DNA of 50,624 nucleotides from Blastocatellia bacterium (GTDB taxonomy: Bacteria; Acidobacteriota; Blastocatellia; Pyrinomonadales; Pyrinomonadaceae), in NCBI GenBank assembly GCA_003168335.1, contig PMSM01000008.1:1-50624 (forward strand), written 5' to 3'. Under the pieces are notes generated by a model that did no database searches, was not told the DNA's origin, and saw nothing but the letters and a program-made list of their open reading frames with translations. The number at the start of each line of letters is the position of its first letter. The stretch's first letter is position 1. This document shows positions 3,001 through 24,776 of this stretch, one piece after another. The position numbers were made by a program, and so were the translations under genes.

Positions 3001-6000
3001 AAGCACCATTCAGTACGCCTGTGATGGTAAAAGTTGGAGTCGTATCGTTGGTGATGTTGTCAGTGTTGCTCGTGCCAGTGTCACTCGCCGCATCCAGGTC
3101 GGGTGCGTCGGGGGTAGTGTCTATCGTGACGCTGGTGGCATTAGACACGGGGCTTGTGTCACTGCCGAGCGACTGTTGAGCAGTATAAGAATAGACCGTG
3201 CCGGTTGTCAGCGGCCCTGGATCGGTCAGTTGAATGGTGTTGCCGGAGGCAACGCCACTGGCAACTGGAGTTGGATTGGCGTCGCGGAACAGTTGGACCG
3301 TTGCGCCAAGTGTGACGCCTGAGATGTTGAAGACCAGATTGGTTGTATGGTTGGTGCTGTAGGGGGCGCCGACCGGTGCTGAATCGCTCGCCGGATCGAG
3401 GGTCGGCGCACCGGGCTGTGTAGCTGCCGCTTGCCGCTCGAAGGCGCCGATTTCAGATAGGTTAACCGGACGCGGGAAGCCGCGTTGGTCGGTCGTCAAG
3501 CCGAAGGCGTTGCCAGTCTCCAGAGCCGGACTGGAGTTCTTCAGCGCGTGCGTCTTCGTCGGTCCGCCATTGTCGGCAAGCACGTCGAGCAACGGATCCT
3601 GACCCGTGATGTTAGTGCCGGGATTGAGCGTCTCGATGATCGTAGCGCCTGAGGTGCTTTGGATCAGGTTGAACCCGTCCGAGTTTACCGTCCCGAAAAT
3701 GTCACTGGCCGTAGCAGCCACGCCTGGGATCGTGTGGTCGGACGTCCCAGGATCGAGCCCTGAAGCATCGCCGCCCGTGGCAATGTTCATCGTCCCGTCA
3801 TTCGCGGCGGCTGTCTTGACGGTCAAGATGATCTTGTTGTTCGCGCCCGTGACATCGAAGAATCCTCCGACGTCCAGATCGTTAGTCAATTCCGTTCGCA
3901 TCGATGCGGCCGCCTGATCAGCAGTAAAGCCGCTAGTAACCGGCGCATTCACAGTCTTCGTGCCGCCCGGCAAGCCGGCCGCGGTGACCACGACCGTCGC
4001 GTTTCCGGTGGTGCTAACCGTGCCGACTACCGTCCCCGTTTCAACCTGCAGGACGTTCGTTCCTTTGAAGTTCCCGGCGACGATCGTGTTCCGCAGCGTA
4101 ATGCTGTTAGAACTGGTTTGATTAAGACCGCCACCATCGCCAAATCCATCATTGTCTGCGTCAGCTCGGTTGCCGGTGATCGTGACGCTCGTCAAAACGG
4201 CTGTGGTCGATCCGCAATTGAGCAAGCCACCGCCAAACCCATCAGAACTGTTACCGCTGATCGTGCTGTTGTCGATAGTCAGCGTGCCGCCTTCGCTGTC
4301 GAGGCCACCGCCTTCGGAGCCGAAACCGGTCACGCTATTGCCGTTGAAGGTGCTGCCACTGATCGTCAGTGCGGTCGTCCCTGAAGTGCCACTGCTGTAC
4401 ACGCCGCCGCCCGCCGCACCACCAGAAAAGCCCGAAGGGCCCGGAGTAGGATTGGCGCCACCCGCGCCAGCCGCTGCCGTATTCGATGCGATAGTCGATT
4501 TCGTAATCGTCAACGCGCCGGTGGTTAATACCCCAATGTTGTAAACCCCGCCGCCTCGGGCAGATCCTCCCGACCCTGGAGTCGCGTTCGAATCGCCACC
4601 CTTGCCGCCAGTCGCCGTGTTCCCGCTGATGGTTGAGTTCGTCAGCGTCAAGGCGCCGGTATTGAAGATGCCGCCGCCATTCGCGTCGCCACCGCCGCCG
4701 CCATTGTCACCTGCGCCTGTACCTGCACCACCAACGCCCCCGACGACGTGATTACCGCTAACGATCACGTTCAGCAAAGTGAGCGTGCCACTGTCATTCA
4801 GGATGCCGCCGCCCGTCACTGAGTCGCCAGGCAAGCCGGTTGGAGACCCAGCAGGCCCCGCATTTCCAACCAGGTTTCCATTGCTGATCGTCATGCCGGA
4901 GATCGTGACGATAAATGGTGGATTAGGACTATTAGAAGCAATCTCGAACACCCGGAAGTTACTCGCCGCGGCGACGGCTCTCTTAACCGTTAGCACGCTG
5001 GCGCCGGGACCTGTGATCGTCACATTCTTATTGACGAGCAGCTCGCCGTTCGCATCGATTAGTTCAATCGTGTGCGACCCTGGCCCGGCGAACACCACCG
5101 GATCAAACGTGATCGTACCGCCGGCGCACACGCCAGTAGTTATGGCATCGCGCAAGCTGCCTGGACCGCTGTCATTGGTGTTCAGGACAACCACCGAAGC
5201 CGAGCATGACTGAACGGCCTGCAACACAATGTTCGACGCGGGGCTTGCATTAAAGGTTCCGTCGCCGTTGTATACGGCCGTGATGCTGTGCGGTGAACCG
5301 GTGGTGTTCGGATAGGTAAACTTACATGTCGCCACACCGCCGCTAAGCGTCTGCCCGCCCACGTTCTCGCAAACAATCGGGTTCACGCCATCGTTGAAAG
5401 TGACCGTACCAGTTGGCGGGCCGGTAACCGACGTTAAGGAACTGACTGTCGCGGTGTACGTCACCTGTACGGTCGGCGCAGACGGGTTCGATGAAGAGAC
5501 CAGCGCTGTCGTGGTGTTCGACTTATTCACCACCTGCGGATCAGTGTTCAGCGTACCCGTGCTCGTAGTGAAGTTGGTATCACCAGGATAGACGGCAGTG
5601 ATCGAGTGCGGGCCTGCGATGAGCGTAGAGATTTGACAGGTGGCCACGCCGCTGCCATTGAGCGACTGGCCGCCAACGTTCGAGCAAGTGATCGGATTCA
5701 CACCGTCCTTGAAAGTGACCGTCCCAGTTGGCGGCCCGGCAAACCCACTCGTCGAAGTGACCGTGGCCGTGAAGGTCACGTTCTGAGTTACCAGAGACGG
5801 GTTCAGCGAAGACGTAACCGCGGTCGTAGTACCCGACGCATTGACGGCCCCTTGCGACAAAGTATTCGACGTGCTCGGGTTAAAGTTCCCGTCACCGCTG
5901 TAGACCGCCGTGACACTGTGCGCTCCGGAGCCAAACGTCGTCACGCATTGCGCCTGGGCTGAACTCAAAGCCACATTGCTGCAACCTGAGATCGGGTTCA

Positions 6001-12618: not shown

Positions 12619-13171
12619 GTTTTCTCCTTTATAGGTAGTGTCTCAATTCCTTTTGCGCCTTCCGATACTCTTTGCGCCTTGGCGAGAAATGTACTTTTCG
12701 CTAATGTCTGCTGAAATTCGAAGCGCGCGCACTTACAACTCTCCGGTGCATAAAACGTTTCGATATCTCAGTTCACAACTTCCCGTGATATTTCACGCGA
12801 AGGCGCTAAGGCATATTTTTCGGCCTGTTGCCAGGTAAGGCCCGAAGGCCCGACATTTAATAGCCACGCCCGTAAGGGCGTGGTTGCGATTGTCTCTATG
12901 AATCTTGAGGCCCAAAGGGCCGGCACTCTTGCCCCTCCGATGTTCATCGCTCATCGCTTTGTGCCGCACCTTCGGCGCTCCGTCTTGTTAGAGCTCTGAT
13001 CCACGCCCTTACGGGCGTGGCTATTGAATGTCGGCCCTTCGGGCCTGCGATTTCAGGGAATCGACACAAAGAGTTTCTTTTCGGGCGACTCCCTTTGCAA
13101 CCAACGATCCTTGATCACGAGCTCCTTAAGTCGCAAAGAAAATCAAACTAGGACAATACCCTTTTCTACCT
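12619..13171. other. Repeat-bearing intergenic gap between dehydrogenase and kinase
   Basis: 553 bp without a credible gene. The centre (12838-13046) is a large inverted-repeat cassette. The AAAGGAG ribosome binding site of the dehydrogenase lies at the left edge. The remainder contains no recognisable promoter or coding sequence. Confidence 0.5.
12838..13046. repeat. Inverted-repeat cassette C (REPIN-like)
   Basis: Two 46-bp arms, 12838-12883 and 13001-13046, are inverted copies with only a few mismatches. Each contains AGGCCCGAAGG, ACATTYAATAGCC and the palindrome CCACGCCCGTAAGGGCGTGG, so each arm can also fold on itself. A further GGCCC/GGGCC stem lies in the spacer near 12909. The ATTYAATAGCC core is shared with cassette B inside the giant gene. 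Confidence 0.85.
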
Positions 13172-17727: not shown

Positions 17728-17736
17728 AGTTCAACC
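17728..17736. repeat. Target-site duplication, left copy (AGTTCAACC)
   Basis: The 9 bp AGTTCAACC immediately outside the left terminal inverted repeat recur as the immediate right flank at 24768-24776. The next outer base differs, which fixes the length at nine. Confidence 0.85.
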
Positions 17737-17805
17737 AGCTTTGCCCGAAAGGTCGCTCAACCAATGGACTATTCGGGCAACCACGGTTTCTGCCCGAAAA
17801 GTCAG
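17737..17805. repeat. Transposon left end with three GCCCGAA sites
   Basis: Sites: AGCTTTGCCCGAA at 17737-17749 (forward), ACTATTCGGGCAA at 17768-17780 (inverted), CTGCCCGAAAAGTCAG at 17790-17805 (forward). The shared core is (T/C)TGCCCGAAWAGT. These are probably transposase binding sites; the SWIM finger is a candidate DNA-binding part. Confidence 0.8.
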
Positions 17806-17846
17806 TTTACCTCAAAAAGATTCTAATAGGGCTACCCGGTTGGATG

Positions 17847-17871
17847 TTGTCACTGACGCGGGCGTTAGTGA
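17847..17871. promoter_or_regulatory. Possible promoter with inverted repeat upstream of 17885 gene
   Basis: TTGTCA at 17847-17852 resembles a -35 box. TCACTGACG (17850-17858) and CGTTAGTGA (17863-17871) form an inverted repeat with 8 of 9 matches, 14 bp before the ATG at 17885. It could be an operator; the -10 match (GATAGG) is poor. Confidence 0.4.
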
Positions 17872-17884
17872 TAGGCTGGCGGGC

Positions 17885-18766
17885 ATGCCAAAGCTTCCAC
17901 CTATCACGATTGGCTCTTTCATCCGCGCGGTCTTTCTGCGCAAGTGGGGATCACTCGTGACCGCGCTTTGGAGTCTCGCGGGCGTTCTCGATTATGTCGA
18001 CAACCATAGAGACATCCTCTCGCCGAAATTCAAAGCGTGGTGGGCAACGCTCTATGTCTTACCCTCTTTCGGTTGGCGTACCTGGCTAATGATCGTTATG
18101 GCAATCTTGGCCGTCAGCGCGTTGCAAGGTGCTTATAGCTATGCGCGTAAGTATGATCGGCGCTATCAAGAGCTAATGAAGCATAGACTTACGTTTCAGA
18201 TAGACGAGAAGCGTTCTTTGGCATACGTTCATCAAGAGACGGGAGACCTTACTTGCATTCAGGTCGCGGTCGCGATCCAATTCAAAAATCACGAACAGTA
18301 TCCGATAACATTAGAGGATATTGTCTTAGAACTCTATGAAAAGCCTGACGAAAAGAGCGACGAAAAAGGGTTTGGGACTCTTATGTATGGAGAGCCGTGC
18401 TTTCAAAGACTGGACACACTAGAAGGCCAGGAGTTTAGAGGGCGGACGTTTGATCATGGATTCTCAGATTGGTTTAAGTTTAAGGCGTGGATCGGCATCG
18501 CCAGAGATATAACGCCAGAACAGCTAGACAATTGGAAACACCGTTTGCGCCTTACGATGATAGCGATGAATCAAGAGCCATTGTCAGCAACTCTCTTCTT
18601 TGATTGGGCAAGAACAACTGAGAAGCCAACGAGTTGCTTTCCTGTATGGCCTCGCTCTCTTGCCGTGCCTACGCGACATAACGTCATAGGTTCTTCTAAG
18701 GGCGACGAGGAGGTAGACAGTCAGGGCTTTCAGACTTTCGAAGATAAACCGAAGTCGTTAGACTAA
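17885..18766 (+). CDS. Transposon cargo: membrane protein of unknown function
   Basis: 293 residues from ATG at 17885. The frame is open from 17741, but the upstream part overlaps the transposon end sites and is unlikely to be translated. A hydrophobic stretch at residues 22-38 and a clear transmembrane helix at about 65-86 (WRTWLMIVMAILAVSALQG) are followed by a soluble C-terminal region of about 200 residues rich in beta-type sequence. No catalytic motif is recognised. A membrane anchor with a cytosolic domain is common in defence-system effectors, but nothing here proves that. First gene of the element on the plus strand, facing the minus-strand pair that follows. Confidence 0.65.
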   Translation: MPKLPPITIGSFIRAVFLRKWGSLVTALWSLAGVLDYVDNHRDILSPKFKAWWATLYVLPSFGWRTWLMIVMAILAVSALQGAYSYARKYDRRYQELMKHRLTFQIDEKRSLAYVHQETGDLTCIQVAVAIQFKNHEQYPITLEDIVLELYEKPDEKSDEKGFGTLMYGEPCFQRLDTLEGQEFRGRTFDHGFSDWFKFKAWIGIARDITPEQLDNWKHRLRLTMIAMNQEPLSATLFFDWARTTEKPTSCFPVWPRSLAVPTRHNVIGSSKGDEEVDSQGFQTFEDKPKSLD

Positions 18767-19000
18767 TCGGCGGTGTATTGCTGGCCGGTCGGAAATTTAT
18801 CTGGGCAGTTTTAGATCAACAAGTTTGCGGACGGCTGAGGCCGGGATAGTCATATCACCCATTCCCACTCGACATAGACCAGCCGAAACTTGACTTTCTT
18901 TTTCACTATTTCTTCGGCTTGGTTTGTCGCAAGTCCGACGCGGCCACGCTCTTAACTTTCGGTAGTGCTCCGTTAGAGTGTTGCTGGGAACGGTTCATTC

Positions 19001-19456
19001 TTATTGGAGTTCGCTTGCAGGTTCAATGCCGACTGCGGCGTATCGAGAAAATACGTCTGTGCCGTCCCAATCGCTCGGCATTGTGGAGCGAAGTCCAGAG
19101 GCGTTGAGTCGCGCGTGTTCTTCGTGTGTAACCAGCATGACTCTGAACCACCGAGTCAAAAGTTCGGTTACGGCTGCTTCCGTAAGAGGCTCCATATCCA
19201 TAAGGCGGTTCACAATGGCCATTTGTGGAACTACGTGCTCAACCGCGCACTCTTTCAACGGCTTACCTAAGGCCGCTTTCGAGCGCGGAATCTTGGCCTT
19301 TTGTGACTGGCCATGAAGCCCGAGTGTCTTGTTCTGCCAATACTGGTGCAAGGCGGTTTTTAAGTTGCGGCAGCAGACGTTCCGAGTGAAGCCAAACGCC
19401 TCCGCTTCCTTGGCTTGCTTGACTGCAAATACAATAAACTCGATGTTTGTTTTCAT
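19001..19456 (-). CDS. Transposon cargo: small protein of unknown function
   Basis: 151 residues from ATG at 19456; a TTG at 19468 with AAGGAAA upstream is an alternative start. The sequence has two Cys in VCCRNLKTAL and the segment ECAVEHVVPQMAIVNRL, which faintly recalls the EHxxP of HNH nucleases, but the other HNH residues are not evident. Downstream of the P-loop gene (19514-19981) on the same strand with a 57-bp gap, so the two may be co-transcribed. No function assigned. Confidence 0.6.
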   Translation of the reverse strand: MKTNIEFIVFAVKQAKEAEAFGFTRNVCCRNLKTALHQYWQNKTLGLHGQSQKAKIPRSKAALGKPLKECAVEHVVPQMAIVNRLMDMEPLTEAAVTELLTRWFRVMLVTHEEHARLNASGLRSTMPSDWDGTDVFSRYAAVGIEPASELQ

Positions 19457-19513
19457 CGTTGCAGGCAAAAGAGTTTAGGTTTCCTTACTGCCGTTGCGCT
19501 GTTTAGTGTGTTG

Positions 19514-19981
19514 CTATTTCCATCCGAAATGCGCTCTGACTTTTGCAGCTACCGTATTGGCGGGCATCGCAGGCTCCGTTTCTGAGGCCGTTACTTCCGG
19601 GAACGTATCGATCACGCCTTCTGGTAAAGAGGTAGTAATGCGGGAGGCTGAATCTCCAAGGCAAGCTACTCTGATGATGTGCCAGCCCTTCTTTATGAAA
19701 TACTGCAAGTAAGTGTCAGCGTCTGGATACCCGCGAGCCTTACCGGGCCGAAGCGAAAATATTACGGCTTCGCAATCCTCCGGTTTTACCTTGCCTTCAA
19801 GCTCGGCAGGTGCCGTTTTCTCCTCTTGAAGTGAACTGAGGTGAACGTAGACTCTGATGTTGCTCGAAAGTGTAGCGATTGGTCTTATCCTGCTACTCCC
19901 AGAGCCAGTTAGGCATCGGGTCACAGATGACTTGCCGGAATCGTTTTCGCCGATAATCACGTATGCTTTCATTTCCTGCAT
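19514..19981 (-). CDS. Transposon cargo: small P-loop NTPase-like protein
   Basis: 155 residues from ATG at 19981 (a second ATG at 19972 is equally possible). The Walker A motif GENDSGKSS begins at residue 11 after a beta-strand AYVIIG, as in P-loop kinases and GTPases. A possible Walker B-like strand is AVIFSLRP; no clear Asp-Glu pair follows. About half the length of typical P-loop NTPases, so it may be a minimal nucleotide-binding protein or a compact kinase. It is divergent from the 299-residue gene starting at 20122, with about 140 bp between them for two promoters. Confidence 0.68.
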   Translation of the reverse strand: MQEMKAYVIIGENDSGKSSVTRCLTGSGSSRIRPIATLSSNIRVYVHLSSLQEEKTAPAELEGKVKPEDCEAVIFSLRPGKARGYPDADTYLQYFIKKGWHIIRVACLGDSASRITTSLPEGVIDTFPEVTASETEPAMPANTVAAKVRAHFGWK

Positions 19982-20121
19982 TCTATCATTGATGTAGAAT
20001 CACCTAACACTTTCGGCGCGTCTCAACTCTACCCGGCCAGGTAGAGGACAAGTTGCGATTTCCTGACGCGGCAGACGCGCCGATTACTTTTTCAGGATCA
20101 CGGCTAACAGGAAAGCCGGAC

Positions 20122-21021
20122 ATGCCTAAAGCAAAGAAGACTGATCCCAAGCGCGTCGGGTCTTTACTCCTTCAGTCTCTACAAGAATCCGGGATCGGAG
20201 AGAAACACTCTGAGATCGATTTGCCGTCTACTATTCGGGCCGACACCTTTGCGTACTGGCAGACGATCAATGACGACGATATTGAAGTTGTATTTCTTGC
20301 CGCGCACTGGGCTGGACAGTTGCGTTGTTCGGTCTCCCTGATCTCATTAGCGACTCATGCGGCGCAGATCTTTCGTGATGACGCCAAGGCCGTAAGCGCG
20401 TTAGTGGATGCCCTCAAATACCTCAAGACCACGATGTTTCTGCTCTTGCCTATCACCACTCAAGACATGTTGGTAAGAGCAATCAATCTGCACCCGCTAC
20501 TCAAATCCAGCAAACGAAAGATTGAAGCACTTCGCAAGTTGCGGGAGCTAGTCCAAGATCCAATGATTTCCGATTTTAGGAAGAGGATCACGCGGACGGC
20601 AAAGCAACTTAGAGCGGAAAAGATTTCTTCGGGCGGTAGCGAAACTAGACTGTCGAAAACGGAGCGCCAAATTCTGCACACTAAGTACAACGCGATTTAC
20701 AAGATAGCGAAGGAAATCAGAACCCACCACAACACCACACTTGAAAGGTTTGATCAACGCCATAGGCGAAGCGGCTGGAACTGGGAGGACTGGGAAGAAT
20801 TCTGGGGAAGGTACGCAGGCGATCTGTACGAACATGACGCCGAGTTCCTATTGCTATTTGCGAACCAGGATCGTCCATCTGCCTCTGAAGTTGCTTACAG
20901 GCGACTCGCGGCACAGACCGAGCATACAAGGTCATACGTTGAGCGACTCGTTCTAAAGGCACGCAAAGAAGCCGGAATACCAAAGCGCCGGAAAAAACAA
21001 ACAATCAAACCATCCAAATGA
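20122..21021 (+). CDS. Transposon cargo: alpha-helical protein with basic C-terminus
   Basis: 299 residues from ATG at 20122, chosen for the AGGAAA site 8 nt upstream; an upstream TTG at 20053 is less likely. Largely helical and highly charged. The middle has several basic helices (SSKRKIEALRKLRELV, FRKRITRTAKQLRAEK). The C-terminal region SASEVAYRRLAAQTEHTRSY resembles a helix-turn-helix and ends in a Lys/Arg-rich tail, so nucleic-acid binding is plausible. A Trp-rich segment (SGWNWEDWEEFWGRY) lies at about residue 235. I do not recognise the family. The stop codon abuts the first of two 19-bp direct repeats leading towards the tRNA. Confidence 0.68.
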   Translation: MPKAKKTDPKRVGSLLLQSLQESGIGEKHSEIDLPSTIRADTFAYWQTINDDDIEVVFLAAHWAGQLRCSVSLISLATHAAQIFRDDAKAVSALVDALKYLKTTMFLLLPITTQDMLVRAINLHPLLKSSKRKIEALRKLRELVQDPMISDFRKRITRTAKQLRAEKISSGGSETRLSKTERQILHTKYNAIYKIAKEIRTHHNTTLERFDQRHRRSGWNWEDWEEFWGRYAGDLYEHDAEFLLLFANQDRPSASEVAYRRLAAQTEHTRSYVERLVLKARKEAGIPKRRKKQTIKPSK

Positions 21022-21084
21022 ATGTCAGTTTTTCTCACAGCGTTTTCCCGACAATGAAGCCGCAGAATGAATGTCAGTTTTTCT
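21017..21084. repeat. Pair of 19-bp direct repeats after the 299-residue gene
   Basis: AATGAATGTCAGTTTTTCT occurs at 21017-21035 and again at 21066-21084, 49 bp apart, both followed by a CACAG/GAGAG variant. A degenerate relative (GAATGAAAGTCCGG) follows near 21115. Spacing and number suggest a protein-binding or recombination site; the purpose is unknown. Confidence 0.7.
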
Positions 21085-21294
21085 GAGAGGTAACAGCCCA
21101 TAGTGACCGCAACCGAATGAAAGTCCGGCTATTGGCCTCTGCAAACTCCACACTGAAAATAAGACTGAGAATCCACATACAAATGCGGCGCTTTGGTGTT
21201 TACTTCTGATCATGAGATCGGAGGGCACCGTGAGATGAGAAGAAGAAAAAGTCCTGCTGGGATGCCGACTCGGTAGGGTGTCAAACGTAGTAAA

Positions 21295-21334
21295 GCCTCA
21301 GAGGGCCAAGGCTCGAAACCAAACCCTCTGAGGC
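21295..21334 (+). other. Strong hairpin 21 nt upstream of the tRNA
   Basis: GCCTCAGAGGG at 21295-21305 pairs perfectly with CCCTCTGAGGC at 21324-21334 across an 18-nt loop. No T-run follows, so a simple terminator is unlikely. It would lie in the 5' leader of a tRNA precursor, or could be part of a small RNA. Confidence 0.55.
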
Positions 21335-21355
21335 ACAGGCAAAAACGGAAACTTC

Positions 21356-21439
21356 GGGGACGTGGCGAAACTGGTAAACGCACCGGGCTGTCACCTTGGT
21401 GGTCTTGCGACCTTGTGGGTTCGAGTCCCGCCGTCCCCA
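21356..21439 (+). tRNA. Class II tRNA-like gene with anticodon GUC
   Basis: 84 nt fold into a full cloverleaf. Acceptor GGGGACG/CGTCCCC (7 bp) with discriminator A at 21439. T8 G9, D stem GCG/CGC around AAACTGGTAAA, then A26. Anticodon stem CCGGG/CTTGG (two G-U pairs) with loop CTGTCAC, so anticodon GTC. Variable arm GGTC-TTGC-GACC makes it class II. T stem GTGGG/CCCGC with loop TTCGAGT. The D arm and long variable arm are typical of tRNA-Leu, while the anticodon loop is exactly that of tRNA-Asp, including C38. CCA is not encoded directly after the discriminator. It sits inside the transposon, 98 bp before the RHH-like gene. Confidence 0.8.
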
Positions 21440-21502
21440 AACCATTCTAGCTAAGCGTCGCGAATATGCAAGGGATCGGGCGGCTTTAGAGTCTCTCGCC
21501 AC

Positions 21503-21531
21503 TTGACAACAGATGTACCATATGTTACATT
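21503..21531 (+). promoter_or_regulatory. Promoter with overlapping palindromic operator
   Basis: TTGACA (21503-21508), a 17-bp spacer and TACATT (21526-21531) form a plausible sigma-70 promoter. The imperfect palindrome ATGTACCATATGTTACAT (21513-21530, 16 of 18 symmetric) covers the spacer and -10. The ATG at 21538 lies about 7 nt after the -10 and lacks a ribosome binding site, suggesting a leaderless transcript repressed by its own product. Confidence 0.65.
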
Positions 21532-21537
21532 TGGCAC

Positions 21538-21723
21538 ATGGGAAACAAGGCACTAAACCTAAGAGACCTGCCCGAAGATTTTCTCAGACGGGCGAAGGCT
21601 CAGGCCGCACTAAGCGGAATGACGTTAAAAGACTTCGTGATAGAGGCAATCGAAAAAGCCATGCAGACTAGCGGTCACGAAACGACTCCGAAGGCGCAAA
21701 GCAAGCGCCCGAAGCAGAAATAG
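21538..21723 (+). CDS. Small ribbon-helix-helix-like protein
   Basis: 61 residues. The pattern NKALNLRDLPEDFLRRAKAQ, then AALSGMTLKDFVIEAIEKAM, matches the beta-alpha-alpha layout of Arc/CopG/FitA-type ribbon-helix-helix regulators; the tail is Lys/Arg-rich. Such proteins bind palindromes as dimers of dimers, and a palindrome overlaps the likely promoter just upstream, so autoregulation is inferred. It may also control the transposase and methyltransferase that follow 120 bp downstream on the same strand. No toxin partner with a PIN or RelE fold is visible beside it, so an antitoxin role is not supported. Confidence 0.72.
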   Translation: MGNKALNLRDLPEDFLRRAKAQAALSGMTLKDFVIEAIEKAMQTSGHETTPKAQSKRPKQK

Positions 21724-21843
21724 TTAAGCCCCGCTGATTGCGATAACAACCAGCGAGGCCAATTGAAAACCAAACGCGATTGCTCGCATCGGTCTCAGGT
21801 AAAGATATTGTGAGCCAGTCGCCAACGAAAGGCAAGGATCACA

Positions 21844-23067
21844 ATGGAAATACGCGAACAGAAAGCACTTGAGATAGCAGCGAAATCAAAACTCACGCGC
21901 AAGGGCGACACGTGGTTAGTCCCCTCTCAGGCCGGGCCAAAGAAGTACACGGTCGATCCTAATCCGCAAGAGCCGCATTGCACCTGTCCAGACTTTGAAG
22001 CGCGCCAACTGCGCTGCAAACATATTTTCGCAGTCGAGTACACGATAGAGCGCGAGCAGACCGCAGACGGTCAGACCATCGTGACGGAGAGTGTTAGAGT
22101 CACGCAAAAAACTTACACTCAGGATTGGCCCGCATACAACAAAGCACAGACAAACGAGAAGGCGCACTTTTTAGCTTTCCTTTATGAGCTATGCAGCAAC
22201 GTCGAAGAGCCGGTGCAGACTTTCGGACGCCCGCGCTTGCCGCTTGCGGATATTATTTTCAGCGCGACGTTCAAGACCTATTCGACTGTTAGCGGACGGC
22301 GGCTCATGAGTGATTTGCGCGACGCTAAGGCGAAAGGCTATCTCTCAAAGATGCCGTCTTACAATTCGCTTTTCGATTACCTGAACATGGCATCGCTTAC
22401 CCCGTACCTGAAACAGTTAATCGCGGAAAGCAGCTTGCCTCTGAAGTCTATCGAAACAGACTTCGCGGTTGATTCATCCGGCTTTTCGACTACCAGTTAC
22501 GTGCGATGGTTCGATGTGAAGTATGGCGGCAATGAGGATTGGCACGACTGGATCAAGATGCACCTGATGTGCGGTACGTCAACACATATCGTAACGAGCG
22601 TTGAACTGAGCCGGGCGCGAGCGCATGATAGCCCGTATTACAAACCTCTTGTTGATGCGACCGCAAAGAGCGGTTTCAACATGCAGGAAGTATCAGCCGA
22701 CAAAGCCTATATCAGCGAAGACAATCTTCGCGCGACCGTCGCACATGGCGCAACGCCGTACATTCCCTTCAAGTCAAATATTACGGCTGTGTCAGGTAAT
22801 AAGAAGAAAGATGAACTCTGGAAAAAGCTTTTCCATTTCTATAGCTTCAAGCGTGAGGAATTCTTAGCCCACTACCACAAGCGATCAAACGTCGAAACCA
22901 CGTTCTCTATGATCAAAGCAAAGTTTGGCGAGCGGTTGCGGAGTAAGACTGAGACAGCGCAAATCAACGAGGCTCTATGCAAAGTGTTGTGTCATAATCT
23001 CTGCGTAGTGATTCAATCAATGTACGAGTTGGGCGTTGACCCGACGTTTGGAGTTGCAGCCGCGTGA
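21844..23067 (+). CDS. DDE transposase with N-terminal SWIM zinc finger
   Basis: 407 residues from ATG at 21844 with AAGGA upstream. N-terminal SWIM-type finger C46-x-C48-x9-C58-x-H60 (HCTCPDFEARQLRCKH). The catalytic core is of the IS4/IS5-like DDE_Tnp_1 type: D210 in VDSSGFSTTSYVRWFD, D286 in VSADKAYISEDN, and E351 in RSNVETTFSMIKAKFGERL, all present and well spaced, so probably active. A HDW-rich strand (DWHDWIKMHLMCG) lies between the first two. The stop TGA overlaps the GTG start of the methyltransferase gene (GTGA), so the two are probably translationally coupled. It presumably acts on the TGCCCGAA-type sites at the element ends. Confidence 0.9.
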   Translation: MEIREQKALEIAAKSKLTRKGDTWLVPSQAGPKKYTVDPNPQEPHCTCPDFEARQLRCKHIFAVEYTIEREQTADGQTIVTESVRVTQKTYTQDWPAYNKAQTNEKAHFLAFLYELCSNVEEPVQTFGRPRLPLADIIFSATFKTYSTVSGRRLMSDLRDAKAKGYLSKMPSYNSLFDYLNMASLTPYLKQLIAESSLPLKSIETDFAVDSSGFSTTSYVRWFDVKYGGNEDWHDWIKMHLMCGTSTHIVTSVELSRARAHDSPYYKPLVDATAKSGFNMQEVSADKAYISEDNLRATVAHGATPYIPFKSNITAVSGNKKKDELWKKLFHFYSFKREEFLAHYHKRSNVETTFSMIKAKFGERLRSKTETAQINEALCKVLCHNLCVVIQSMYELGVDPTFGVAAA

Positions 23068-24689
23068 ACACTCTCTACTACGGCGACAATCTTTCAATTC
23101 TGCGCGAGCATATTGCCGATGCTTCCGTAGACCTGATCTATCTTGACCCGCCGTTCAACTCCAAAGCGACCTATAACCTTCTTTTTAGATCGCCAAAGGG
23201 CCAGCAATCAAACGCACAAATTGAAGCGTTTGAGGATACATGGCACTGGGGCGACGAAGCTGAAAAAGAATTTCAGGAGCTAATCCATCAACCGAACACA
23301 GACGTATCAGAAATGATGCAAGCTCTCCGTCGCTTTCTCGGTGAAAACGACATGATGGCGTATCTCACGATGATCGCTAATCGGCTGATAGAGCTGCATC
23401 GCATCCTAAAGAATACAGGGACTCTCTATCTTCATTGTGATCCCACTGCTAGCCATTATCTCAAGATCGTTCTTGACGGAGTATTTGGCAAAGAAAATTT
23501 TCGCAATGAGATTGTCTGGCAACGGACTAACGCGCATAACATGAGAACTAAGGGATATGTTCGCGCCAATGACACGATCTTTATCTACGCCAAAACGGAT
23601 GAGTTTACCTTTAACGAGCAGTATACCGAATACGGCCCGGAACAGATGAGCAGATACAAGCCGGATGAAAATGGCAGGCTCTATAAGGCGGAGAATCTAA
23701 CTTTTTCTAATCCAAATCCCCATCGTCAGTTTACATGGCGCGGAACTACGCCGCCGCCCAACCGTTCCTGGGGCGCTTCACTTGAACAGTTGGAGCAGTT
23801 TTATGCCGATGGCCGCATCCTTCTCAGGAAGGACGGGTCGCCCAGAATGGATGGCCTCAAGGTGTACCTCGATGAAATGAAAGGCAAGCCGCTCACAACT
23901 AACTGGACTGACATCGACCGGATAAGCAATACGTCCGGTGAGCGCCTTGGCTATCCCACGCAAAAACCGCTCGCCCTTCTCGAGCGAATAGTTGCAGTCA
24001 GTAGCAACGAAAACGATATTGTTTTAGATCCGTTCTGCGGATGCGGAACAACAATTCATGCCGCCGAAAAACTAAAGCGGAAATGGATCGGAATCGACAT
24101 AACACACCTTGCGATTAGCTTAATCGAGAAGCGACTGCGAGACGCCTTTCCTAGTATTGTTTTTGAGGTTCACGGAACGCCGAAAGACCTTGAGAGTGCC
24201 CGCGACCTATCACAGCGAGACAAGTATCAGTTTCAATGGTGGGCTTGCTCGCTTGTGAACGCGCAACCATATCAGGGAAAGAAGAAGGGCGCAGACAGTG
24301 GCATTGACGGCTTGATCTTCTTTCAGGATGATAAGAGCGGAGCAAAGAAGATTGTTGTTTCGGTCAAGGGAGGCGAGAACGTGGGCGTGCCTATGATCCG
24401 CGACTTAGGCCACGTCATTGATCGCGAGAAGGCGTCCATCGGTCTATTTGTCACTCTAGCCGATCCAACTAGCCCTATGACGAAAGAAGCGGTCACGGCT
24501 GGCTACTATGAAAGTCCGACGGGTGCCAGTTTTCCTAAAATACAGATACTCACGATCAAGGGACTATTAGACGGATCAGAGCGACCGCGTTATCCAGACT
24601 TGATGCAGGGTGGTTTGATGTTCAAGAAGGCGAAAAAAGAAGTAGCTGAAACTCAACTCACGTTAGGCGATGGTAATGAGAAGCATTAA
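23064..24689 (+). CDS. DNA methyltransferase fused to a PD-(D/E)XK-like nuclease domain
   Basis: 541 residues. Start GTG at 23064 inside the transposase stop. Motif IV DPPFNS at residues 28-33 comes before motif I DPFCGCGTT at 322-330, the beta-class order of N6-adenine or N4-cytosine methyltransferases; a target-recognition region fills the centre. The C-terminal part carries SGIDGLIFF near 412 and IVVSVKGG near 431, an Mrr-like arrangement (D ... x-V-K) of a PD-(D/E)XK restriction nuclease. This would combine modification and cleavage in one chain, as in type IIG or related enzymes, but the nuclease assignment rests on short motifs. It may protect or regulate the element, or serve as a stabilising restriction system. 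Confidence 0.85.
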   Translation: MNTLYYGDNLSILREHIADASVDLIYLDPPFNSKATYNLLFRSPKGQQSNAQIEAFEDTWHWGDEAEKEFQELIHQPNTDVSEMMQALRRFLGENDMMAYLTMIANRLIELHRILKNTGTLYLHCDPTASHYLKIVLDGVFGKENFRNEIVWQRTNAHNMRTKGYVRANDTIFIYAKTDEFTFNEQYTEYGPEQMSRYKPDENGRLYKAENLTFSNPNPHRQFTWRGTTPPPNRSWGASLEQLEQFYADGRILLRKDGSPRMDGLKVYLDEMKGKPLTTNWTDIDRISNTSGERLGYPTQKPLALLERIVAVSSNENDIVLDPFCGCGTTIHAAEKLKRKWIGIDITHLAISLIEKRLRDAFPSIVFEVHGTPKDLESARDLSQRDKYQFQWWACSLVNAQPYQGKKKGADSGIDGLIFFQDDKSGAKKIVVSVKGGENVGVPMIRDLGHVIDREKASIGLFVTLADPTSPMTKEAVTAGYYESPTGASFPKIQILTIKGLLDGSERPRYPDLMQGGLMFKKAKKEVAETQLTLGDGNEKH

Positions 24690-24709
24690 CGCGCGGATCG
24701 CCGAGACGA

Positions 24710-24767
24710 CAGACTTTTCGGGCAGCAGCCTAACTTTTCGGGCAAGAGGCACTATTCGGGCAAAGCT
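24710..24767. repeat. Transposon right end with three GCCCGAA sites
   Basis: Three inverted-orientation sites: GACTTTTCGGGCAG (24712-24725), AACTTTTCGGGCAA (24732-24745) and ACTATTCGGGCAAAGCT (24751-24767). Read inward from the right, the outermost begins AGCTTTGCCCGAA, identical to the left terminus. Confidence 0.82.
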
Positions 24768-24776
24768 AGTTCAACC
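24768..24776. repeat. Target-site duplication, right copy (AGTTCAACC)
   Basis: Direct repeat of 17728-17736, immediately outside the right terminal repeat. Confidence 0.85.

Follow-up and report, generated by a model that had tools for sequence, protein, structure and literature searches.

The locus raises the question of why a bacterial transposon carries a tRNA gene whose body belongs to one amino acid and whose anticodon belongs to another. The window, by which is meant the whole stretch of 50,624 nucleotides that was analysed, contained a single tRNA according to ARAGORN, at positions 21356-21439 of the forward strand with the anticodon GTC. The same span was returned by the Rfam model RF00005 with 53.4 bits (E 9.1e-09), which exceeds the gathering score of 29 and is well above background. 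Direct reading gave an acceptor stem with 7 of 7 pairs, a D stem of 3 pairs (GCG/CGC), an anticodon stem of 5 in which two adjacent pairs are G-U, a variable stem of 4 (GGTC/GACC) and a T stem of 5 with one G-U pair, all 24 stem pairs being formed. The anticodon loop is CTGTCAC, the T loop is TTCGAGT and N73 is A. Because U8 cannot pair with C65, the acceptor branch counts as 7/5 rather than 8/4. The full cloverleaf described in the sequence-only reading, with its 7-bp acceptor, 5-bp T stem, 4-bp variable arm and this anticodon loop, was thus borne out.

A comparison with 87 reference tRNAs, made with the anticodon masked, gave Leu for each of the four closest bodies, the first being the Leu(CAG) tRNA of the host, to which the window tRNA is identical at 55 of 84 aligned positions. 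By the identity rules, A73 belongs to Leu, G73 to Ser and U73 to Cys. The anticodon loop is identical to that of the ordinary host tRNA-Asp, and the proposed combination of a Leu-like D arm, A73 and an Asp anticodon loop on a class II tRNA held. With GUC as its anticodon the molecule is no tRNA-Leu isoacceptor, and with a class II body and A73 it lacks the class I body and G73 of a tRNA-Asp. The host has five ordinary tRNA-Leu genes (anticodons TAG, TAA, CAA, CAG and GAG) and an ordinary tRNA-Asp(GTC) at G000:C8; the window tRNA is therefore an additional tRNA in which body and anticodon are in conflict. CCA is not encoded by the gene, as is also the case for the host tRNA-Leu(GAG). In an alignment of 13 Leu-type tRNAs (the window tRNA, two from other elements and ten ordinary ones), 99.7% of cells were paired and both-side changes occurred at 19 of the 24 pairs, so the fold is not degenerate and is kept by compensatory changes among Leu-type tRNAs. 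The training set of our model R1 includes the tRNAs of the window and of L070, whose R1 scores are thus not independent; the Rfam scores are. A strict Leu-GUC pattern search of 147 genomes of the host's class matched the host genome alone. A similar pattern matched two viral contigs (L075:7686-7791 and L076:3884-3989), where a Leu-like class II tRNA with GUC has G73, compared with A73 in the window.

The tRNA lies within a transposon of 7,031 bp (17737-24767) that has matching ends, a perfect 9-bp target duplication on both sides and TTGCCCGAAAAGT-like motifs repeated at both ends, which confirms the earlier claim that it is transposon-borne. The features of the transposon are the following.

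17728-17736, no strand: left copy of the target-site duplication AGTTCAACC, identical to 24768-24776.
17737-17749, forward: left terminal inverted repeat AGCTTTGCCCGAA, with more TTGCCCGAAAAGT motif copies at about 17768 and about 17790.
17741-18766, forward: open reading frame (ORF), true start uncertain, no family match.
19001-19468, reverse: ORF, no Pfam family match.
19514-19981, reverse: ORF, weak matches to AAA ATPase N-termini only.
20125-21021, forward: ORF 5' of the tRNA and co-directional with it, start uncertain, no family match.
21295-21334, forward: hairpin of 11 perfect pairs (21295-21305 with 21324-21334), ending 21 nt 5' of the tRNA, z -4.4.
21356-21439, forward: class II tRNA with Leu-type body, anticodon GUC (Asp), A73 and 7/5 acceptor branch (ARAGORN, Rfam, body comparison, direct reading).
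21503-21531, forward: sigma-70-like promoter match TTGACA-17-TACATT, 5' of the ribbon-helix-helix gene (1 found, 0.5 expected by chance).
21538-21723, forward: small ribbon-helix-helix protein, ParD/FitA-like, below curated cut-offs.
21844-23067, forward: transposase with SWIM zinc finger and DDE_Tnp_1 (domain matches).
23064-24689, forward: passenger gene for a fusion of an N6/N4 DNA methylase with an Mrr-type nuclease domain (domain matches).
24755-24767, reverse: right terminal inverted repeat, with more motif copies at about 24713 and about 24733.
24768-24776, no strand: right copy of the target-site duplication AGTTCAACC, identical to the left copy.

The ribbon-helix-helix protein is probably a regulator. 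As regards a possible type II toxin-antitoxin pair, the tRNA precedes its gene and the transposase follows it, and the ORF at 20125-21021 matched no known family. When ten proteins of the window and of other elements were compared with a defence library, seven had no match; the methylase matched many methylase models, one window ORF weakly matched AriA/GajA and a protein from locus L282 weakly matched PDC-M34A. In a plasmid search, every relative of the transposase that came up was a distant one with less than 60% identity. The host genome also contains a relic copy (L050), whose ends are the same and which is flanked by a 9/9 target duplication of its own; the only tRNA found there is outside its ends. 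No such Leu-GUC tRNA was present in either of the nearest copies examined (this relic and L049, 66% transposase identity). The transposase leader (window 21728-21843) and those of L069, L077, L078 and L079 have a similar hairpin and TTGAAAACCAAACGCGATTGCTCGC variants, with or without a tRNA. The window also holds a pair of Acido-Lenti-1 RNAs (RF01687), one on each strand and separated by about 120 bp, at 12838-12883 (reverse) and 13001-13046 (forward).

Relatives of the transposon were sampled as the best 80 of 223 confirmed genome loci, together with 22 viral-contig loci, all with a related DDE/SWIM transposase. The loci were searched for tRNAs with ARAGORN and a tRNA covariance model, the latter on all but the viral locus L167. 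A tRNA on the strand of the transposase and within 600 bp upstream of it was found in 18 of these best 80 of 223 genome loci, and none had one there on the opposite strand; at least 600 bp of upstream sequence was present in 76 of the 80. The distance from tRNA start to transposase in the 18 loci was 163-470 bp, with a median of 379 (first tRNA per locus). Within 600 bp downstream, tRNAs were found at one locus among the best 80 of 223 (L079). A tRNA also lies some 3 kb downstream in L148, some 0.9 kb upstream in L112 and 320 bp upstream in the viral-contig locus L162, and two tRNAs stand together in L093, L103 and L273. The tRNA of L132, one of the 18, is a weak match (27 bits) with a poor fold. 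This recurrent slot in a transposon family is beyond what the sequence-only reading had described.

Perfect 9-bp duplications surround the tRNA in nine elements (the window, L080, L093, L103, L109, L110, L131, L143 and L162). L121 and L148 match when shifted by one base, L079 gave an inverted match, and a target duplication was sought in L132 and none was seen; the ten tRNA-bearing loci L098, L112, L117, L120, L125, L126, L127, L136, L147 and L154 had no testable end pair in the available stretch. The family ends, (A/G)GCTTTGC with a 9-bp duplication, were seen in the window and its relic. Candidates for both ends were available at 67 loci, and 43 of these reached at least 8/9, the best-matching pair of candidate ends being chosen per locus. 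Insertion beside host tRNA genes was considered as the origin of the slot and is contradicted by the target duplications, which enclose the tRNAs. The elements of L093 and L103, in different genomes, have the same 9-bp target ACACTTCGT, reflecting either site preference or inheritance.

A tree of 102 transposases, built by a quick method, required 15 changes for the 23 carriers labelled on it, versus 20.9 after shuffling of the labels (0 of 500 as low). One Terriglobia group had a tRNA in 7 of its 8 members, and the nearest named transposases to that of the window were from Acidobacteriota, which points to an acidobacterial host. Carriers made up about a quarter of the relatives studied; as about three quarters of the transposases had no detectable tRNA, the tRNA is dispensable for transposition. 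Elsewhere in the host genome, a divergent tRNA-Asn-like gene with GTT (G000:C10:186949-187020; L268, about 3950-4021, reverse) lies beside a Mu/Tn7-like gene with rve and Mu-transpos_C domains and is possibly another transposon-borne tRNA.

The nearest body, with the anticodon masked, agreed with the anticodon isotype in none of 24 element tRNAs, versus 69 of 87 references across genomes. Four of the 24 (three stop-reading and one Ile anticodon) could not agree by construction because the reference set has no stop or Ile isotype; without them agreement was 0/20 (Fisher p 1.4e-11), and without L147 as well, whose anticodon is unsure, 0/19 (p 4.0e-11). These figures rest on references from two acidobacterial genomes, without Ile, and on a mask that was one base off for L117. 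The whole test comprised 27 rows, the other three being two odd tRNAs of genome G084 and the viral L075, and the only agreeing row was a GUC tRNA of G084 (L258); the tRNA of L132, the second of L079, the first of L121, the first of L131 and the L273 pair stood outside it. The four nearest bodies were unanimous for eleven element tRNAs: Leu with GUC (the window and the Chloroflexi element L120, the second such combination) or UUA (L148), Ser with GCA (L109, L093, L103, L125), UAA (L126) or UAU (L162), Glu with UGC (L093) and Arg with GAC (L143). For ordinary tRNAs taken as controls from beyond the element ends, body and anticodon matched in 14 of 22 cases (4 of 4 on the bacterial contigs L095, L127, L135 and L136; 10 of 18 on the viral contigs L159 and L167).

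The stems of the element tRNAs are largely intact, with 463 of 491 cells paired in the 24 element tRNAs and 1857 of 1885 in 90 others, in an alignment that was fitted to the structure and in which the 90 include a few weak or outside matches. The unpaired share was 5.7% in element tRNAs versus 1.5% in the others, partly owing to members with a 9-bp acceptor and a 3-bp T stem (9/3) being scored on a 7/5 structure. Among 23 element tRNAs checked, 20 had a TTCRA T loop and 10 encoded CCA; L120 has the odd T loop TCCGAGG, and the first tRNA of L103 and that of L110 also lack TTCRA. The tRNA of L121 has G3-U70, which we take to be an Ala identity feature. Further odd tRNAs occur in genome G084 (L249, also L263; L258, also L265; L261, also L267), for example GCG on a Glu-like body, and by eye no transposase ORF adjoins them. 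A viral-contig tRNA within a tRNA array (L167:852-942, reverse) has the anticodon TTT (Lys) and Ser as nearest bodies.

A model built from two 9/3 members had matches in 61 of 399 Terriglobia genomes, and ten of the returned loci were chosen for follow-up. Two of these, L271 (= L103) and L272 (= L126, by coordinates), are within the SWIM/DDE transposon family. The surroundings of L273 looked similar by eye (a winged-helix gene, two tRNAs and a zinc-ribbon-like ORF), and its genome, G419, is absent from those listed with a transposase match. L271, L273, L274 and L282 look like allo-tRNAs, and five of the ten have the Sec-like anticodon UCA. In L274 and L282 (about 1501-1590), UAU allo-tRNAs stand behind other ORFs, one with a weak DUF5343/PDC-M34A match, possibly as a protein-tRNA module outside the SWIM/DDE family.

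Two pairs of related elements differ in their tRNA while sharing the flanking DNA, the upstream hairpin included. L109 (Ser body, GCA) and L117 (Glu-like, UUU) are 76% alike across a stretch that begins about 10 nt past the L109 tRNA and takes in the transposase, and 92% alike over the 52 nt before the tRNA, the tRNAs themselves being outside every alignment. L131 and L147 have 44 nt in common (86%) ahead of differing tRNAs, and the same stretch also precedes the second L131 tRNA. A stem of at least 8 pairs (G-U allowed) ending 4-24 nt before the tRNA was present in 17 of 25 upstream stretches. The fold energy of the 70 nt upstream gave z < -3 for 16 of 25 element tRNAs versus 4 of 62 host tRNAs (Mann-Whitney p 6.6e-09), with shuffles that kept base composition only. 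Upstream stems of at least 8 pairs were found in 20 of 25 versus 24 of 62, which separates the two groups less well than z does, and stems of at least 10 pairs in 12 of 25 versus 5 of 62. This comparison was made without L110 (runs of N) and the second tRNAs of pairs and with the non-family L274 and L282, minus which 14 of 23 had z < -3; L126, L147, L148, L154 and L162 had neither an 8-pair stem nor a low z.

The tRNA starts 29-79 nt past the stop of a co-directional ORF in 14 elements (335 bp in the window), and this ORF often encodes a coiled-coil/winged-helix protein. A profile of that protein gave 11 matches, ten of them in tRNA-bearing loci, seven of those ten being its seeds; three of the four new matches were at loci with a tRNA. 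The window element was not matched by this profile. The predicted structure of the accessory protein had a pLDDT of 85, and a fold search with it returned general winged-helix matches, none reaching E 0.001. No hidden tRNA was found by ARAGORN past the accessory gene of L163 or of L148 (at 2327), loosened settings giving only intron-split or odd calls.

Since different mismatched tRNAs fill the slot across the family, it seems to be the mismatch itself that is retained there rather than any individual tRNA. The fold is conserved, the slot recurs and, most importantly, not a single tRNA agrees, all of which points to element tRNAs that are used and in which the mismatch matters, with charging directed by the body and decoding by the foreign anticodon, here leucine at Asp codons. 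The mismatched tRNAs of the relatives, in the same place, suggest that these transposons carry tRNAs able to misread the genetic code. LeuRS is largely indifferent to the anticodon. The window tRNA would be transcribed together with the upstream hairpin, trimmed by RNase P and given its CCA, and, once charged with leucine by LeuRS, could decode GAC/GAU at some rate. Such a transposon-borne missense suppressor is the explanation that we hold, judging from sequence comparison, to be somewhat probable. The benefit to the element might be, for example, a toxicity that the adjacent regulator restrains, or an advantage when the host is stressed or attacked by phages. Among the three roles suggested from the letters, leucine at Asp codons is thus favoured by the absence of agreement in all 24 tRNAs (20 able to agree), and the retained A73 makes a non-canonical Asp acceptor less likely, since AspRS prefers G73; a regulatory or processing role retains some weight because of the hairpin directly upstream. 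Counted against mistranslation are the absence of the window tRNA from any close copy examined, the 335-bp gap after the preceding ORF, the higher unpaired share, the odd T loop of L120 and the weak L132 match, and the two neighbouring G-U pairs of the window anticodon stem could weaken decoding. Recoding of the transposase itself was not supported: the misread codon is neither avoided nor enriched, there is no Asp where Leu is common and the frame is open, and in the elements with ochre-reading tRNAs (L098, L103, L148) no TAA occurs within the open frame of the transposase.

It is unlikely, though worth weighing, that the unit serves processing or insulation, RNase P cutting a hairpin-tRNA unit so that the upstream mRNA gains a hairpin-protected 3' end and outside transcripts are kept from the transposase, with anticodon and amino acid irrelevant. 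The strong hairpins right before many element tRNAs, the short distance from a co-directional stop codon in 14 elements and the orientation of all 18 upstream tRNAs along the transposase strand fit this, and the explanation owes its standing to two features, the hairpin and the placement behind an ORF. However, if the fold alone mattered, recent captures of ordinary, agreeing tRNAs would be expected, and none of the 20 able to agree does so; the paired tRNAs in L093, L103 and L273 also seem superfluous. An uncharged mimic or decoy, that is, a regulatory RNA that binds the winged-helix accessory protein or uses its anticodon loop to occupy enzymes that cut or modify tRNAs, appears distinctly improbable. 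It would account for the coiled-coil/winged-helix gene ahead of the tRNA in many elements and for the two UAU allo-tRNAs that follow related-looking ORFs outside the family, and in the review PMC7609411 UAU allo-tRNAs are described as unusable for translation in E. coli. The TTCRA T loops and encoded CCA ends of most and many element tRNAs, respectively, speak against it, as do a window anticodon loop that is that of an ordinary tRNA-Asp and a window element unmatched by the winged-helix profile. That the tRNAs are captured or decaying host tRNAs, or host genes beside which a transposon has landed, and have no role is very improbable, since ordinary tRNAs about 160-640 bp outside the ends of L050, L095, L127 and L167 and the somewhat raised unpaired share are set against target duplications around mismatched tRNAs in nine elements, a pair integrity that is still 94% and the agreement of 0/20.

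Returning to mistranslation, a broader proposal, which we put forward tentatively and at somewhat less than even weight, is that this widespread family has an exchangeable slot for deliberately mismatched tRNAs, forming a mobile mistranslation module (hairpin, tRNA and regulator) that would alter the meaning of host codons to the benefit of the transposon, with at least some allo-tRNAs of Acidobacteria as one branch. Such a module might, for example, act as an RNA toxin, respond to stress or phages, or work as a maintenance system. If this is true, a class of bacterial transposons acts as a carrier of missense and nonsense suppressor tRNAs from one host to another, and horizontal change of decoding rules becomes a natural, testable process. 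A genomic home would then be given to at least some irregular tRNAs of soil bacteria that lack an explanation, and many natural identity-swapped tRNAs would be offered to translation research.

A search of the open-access literature with limited terms returned no title or abstract opening describing a family of transposons that has a tRNA slot of this kind. Irregular tRNAs of Acidobacteria with a suspected transposon link are already known from the accessible portion of PMC7609411, which describes allo-tRNAs as class II tRNAs of Acidobacteria and other bacteria with non-cognate anticodons, GUC being among the commonest of the 8/4 kind, and reports one allo-tRNA pseudogene that overlaps a transposon-related ORF. 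The window tRNA is similar to these in its non-cognate anticodon on a class II body, and the slot members L093, L103, L125 and L126 have a 9-bp acceptor and a 3-bp T stem (by alignment or fold). In contrast to allo-tRNAs, with their 12-bp branch (8/4 or 9/3), the window tRNA has a 7/5 branch, a Leu body and A73. Within that same portion, the account contains no transposon family of defined ends and target duplications, no slot of changing tRNAs, no upstream hairpin and no class I members with mismatched anticodons (PMC7609411).

The best NCBIfam match of the window transposase, which shares the DDE_Tnp_1 domain, was to the IS5 group of DDE insertion sequences (NF033579), but at 106.5 bits it is under the curated cut-off of 140, as it is below the cut-offs of all the NCBIfam IS models matched, and it has an extra SWIM zinc finger. 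The family also differs from the IS5 group in its TTGCCC(G/A)AAAAGT repeats at both ends and in the tRNA slot. The host tRNA-Leu genes share with the window tRNA the nearest body, A73, the 3-bp D stem and the layout of the variable arm, whereas GUC and a location on a transposon are particular to the latter. A parallel is offered by laboratory missense suppressor tRNAs, in which the body sets identity and a foreign anticodon decodes; the slot tRNAs would share this combination and, unlike them, are natural, mobile and of many kinds in one genomic slot.
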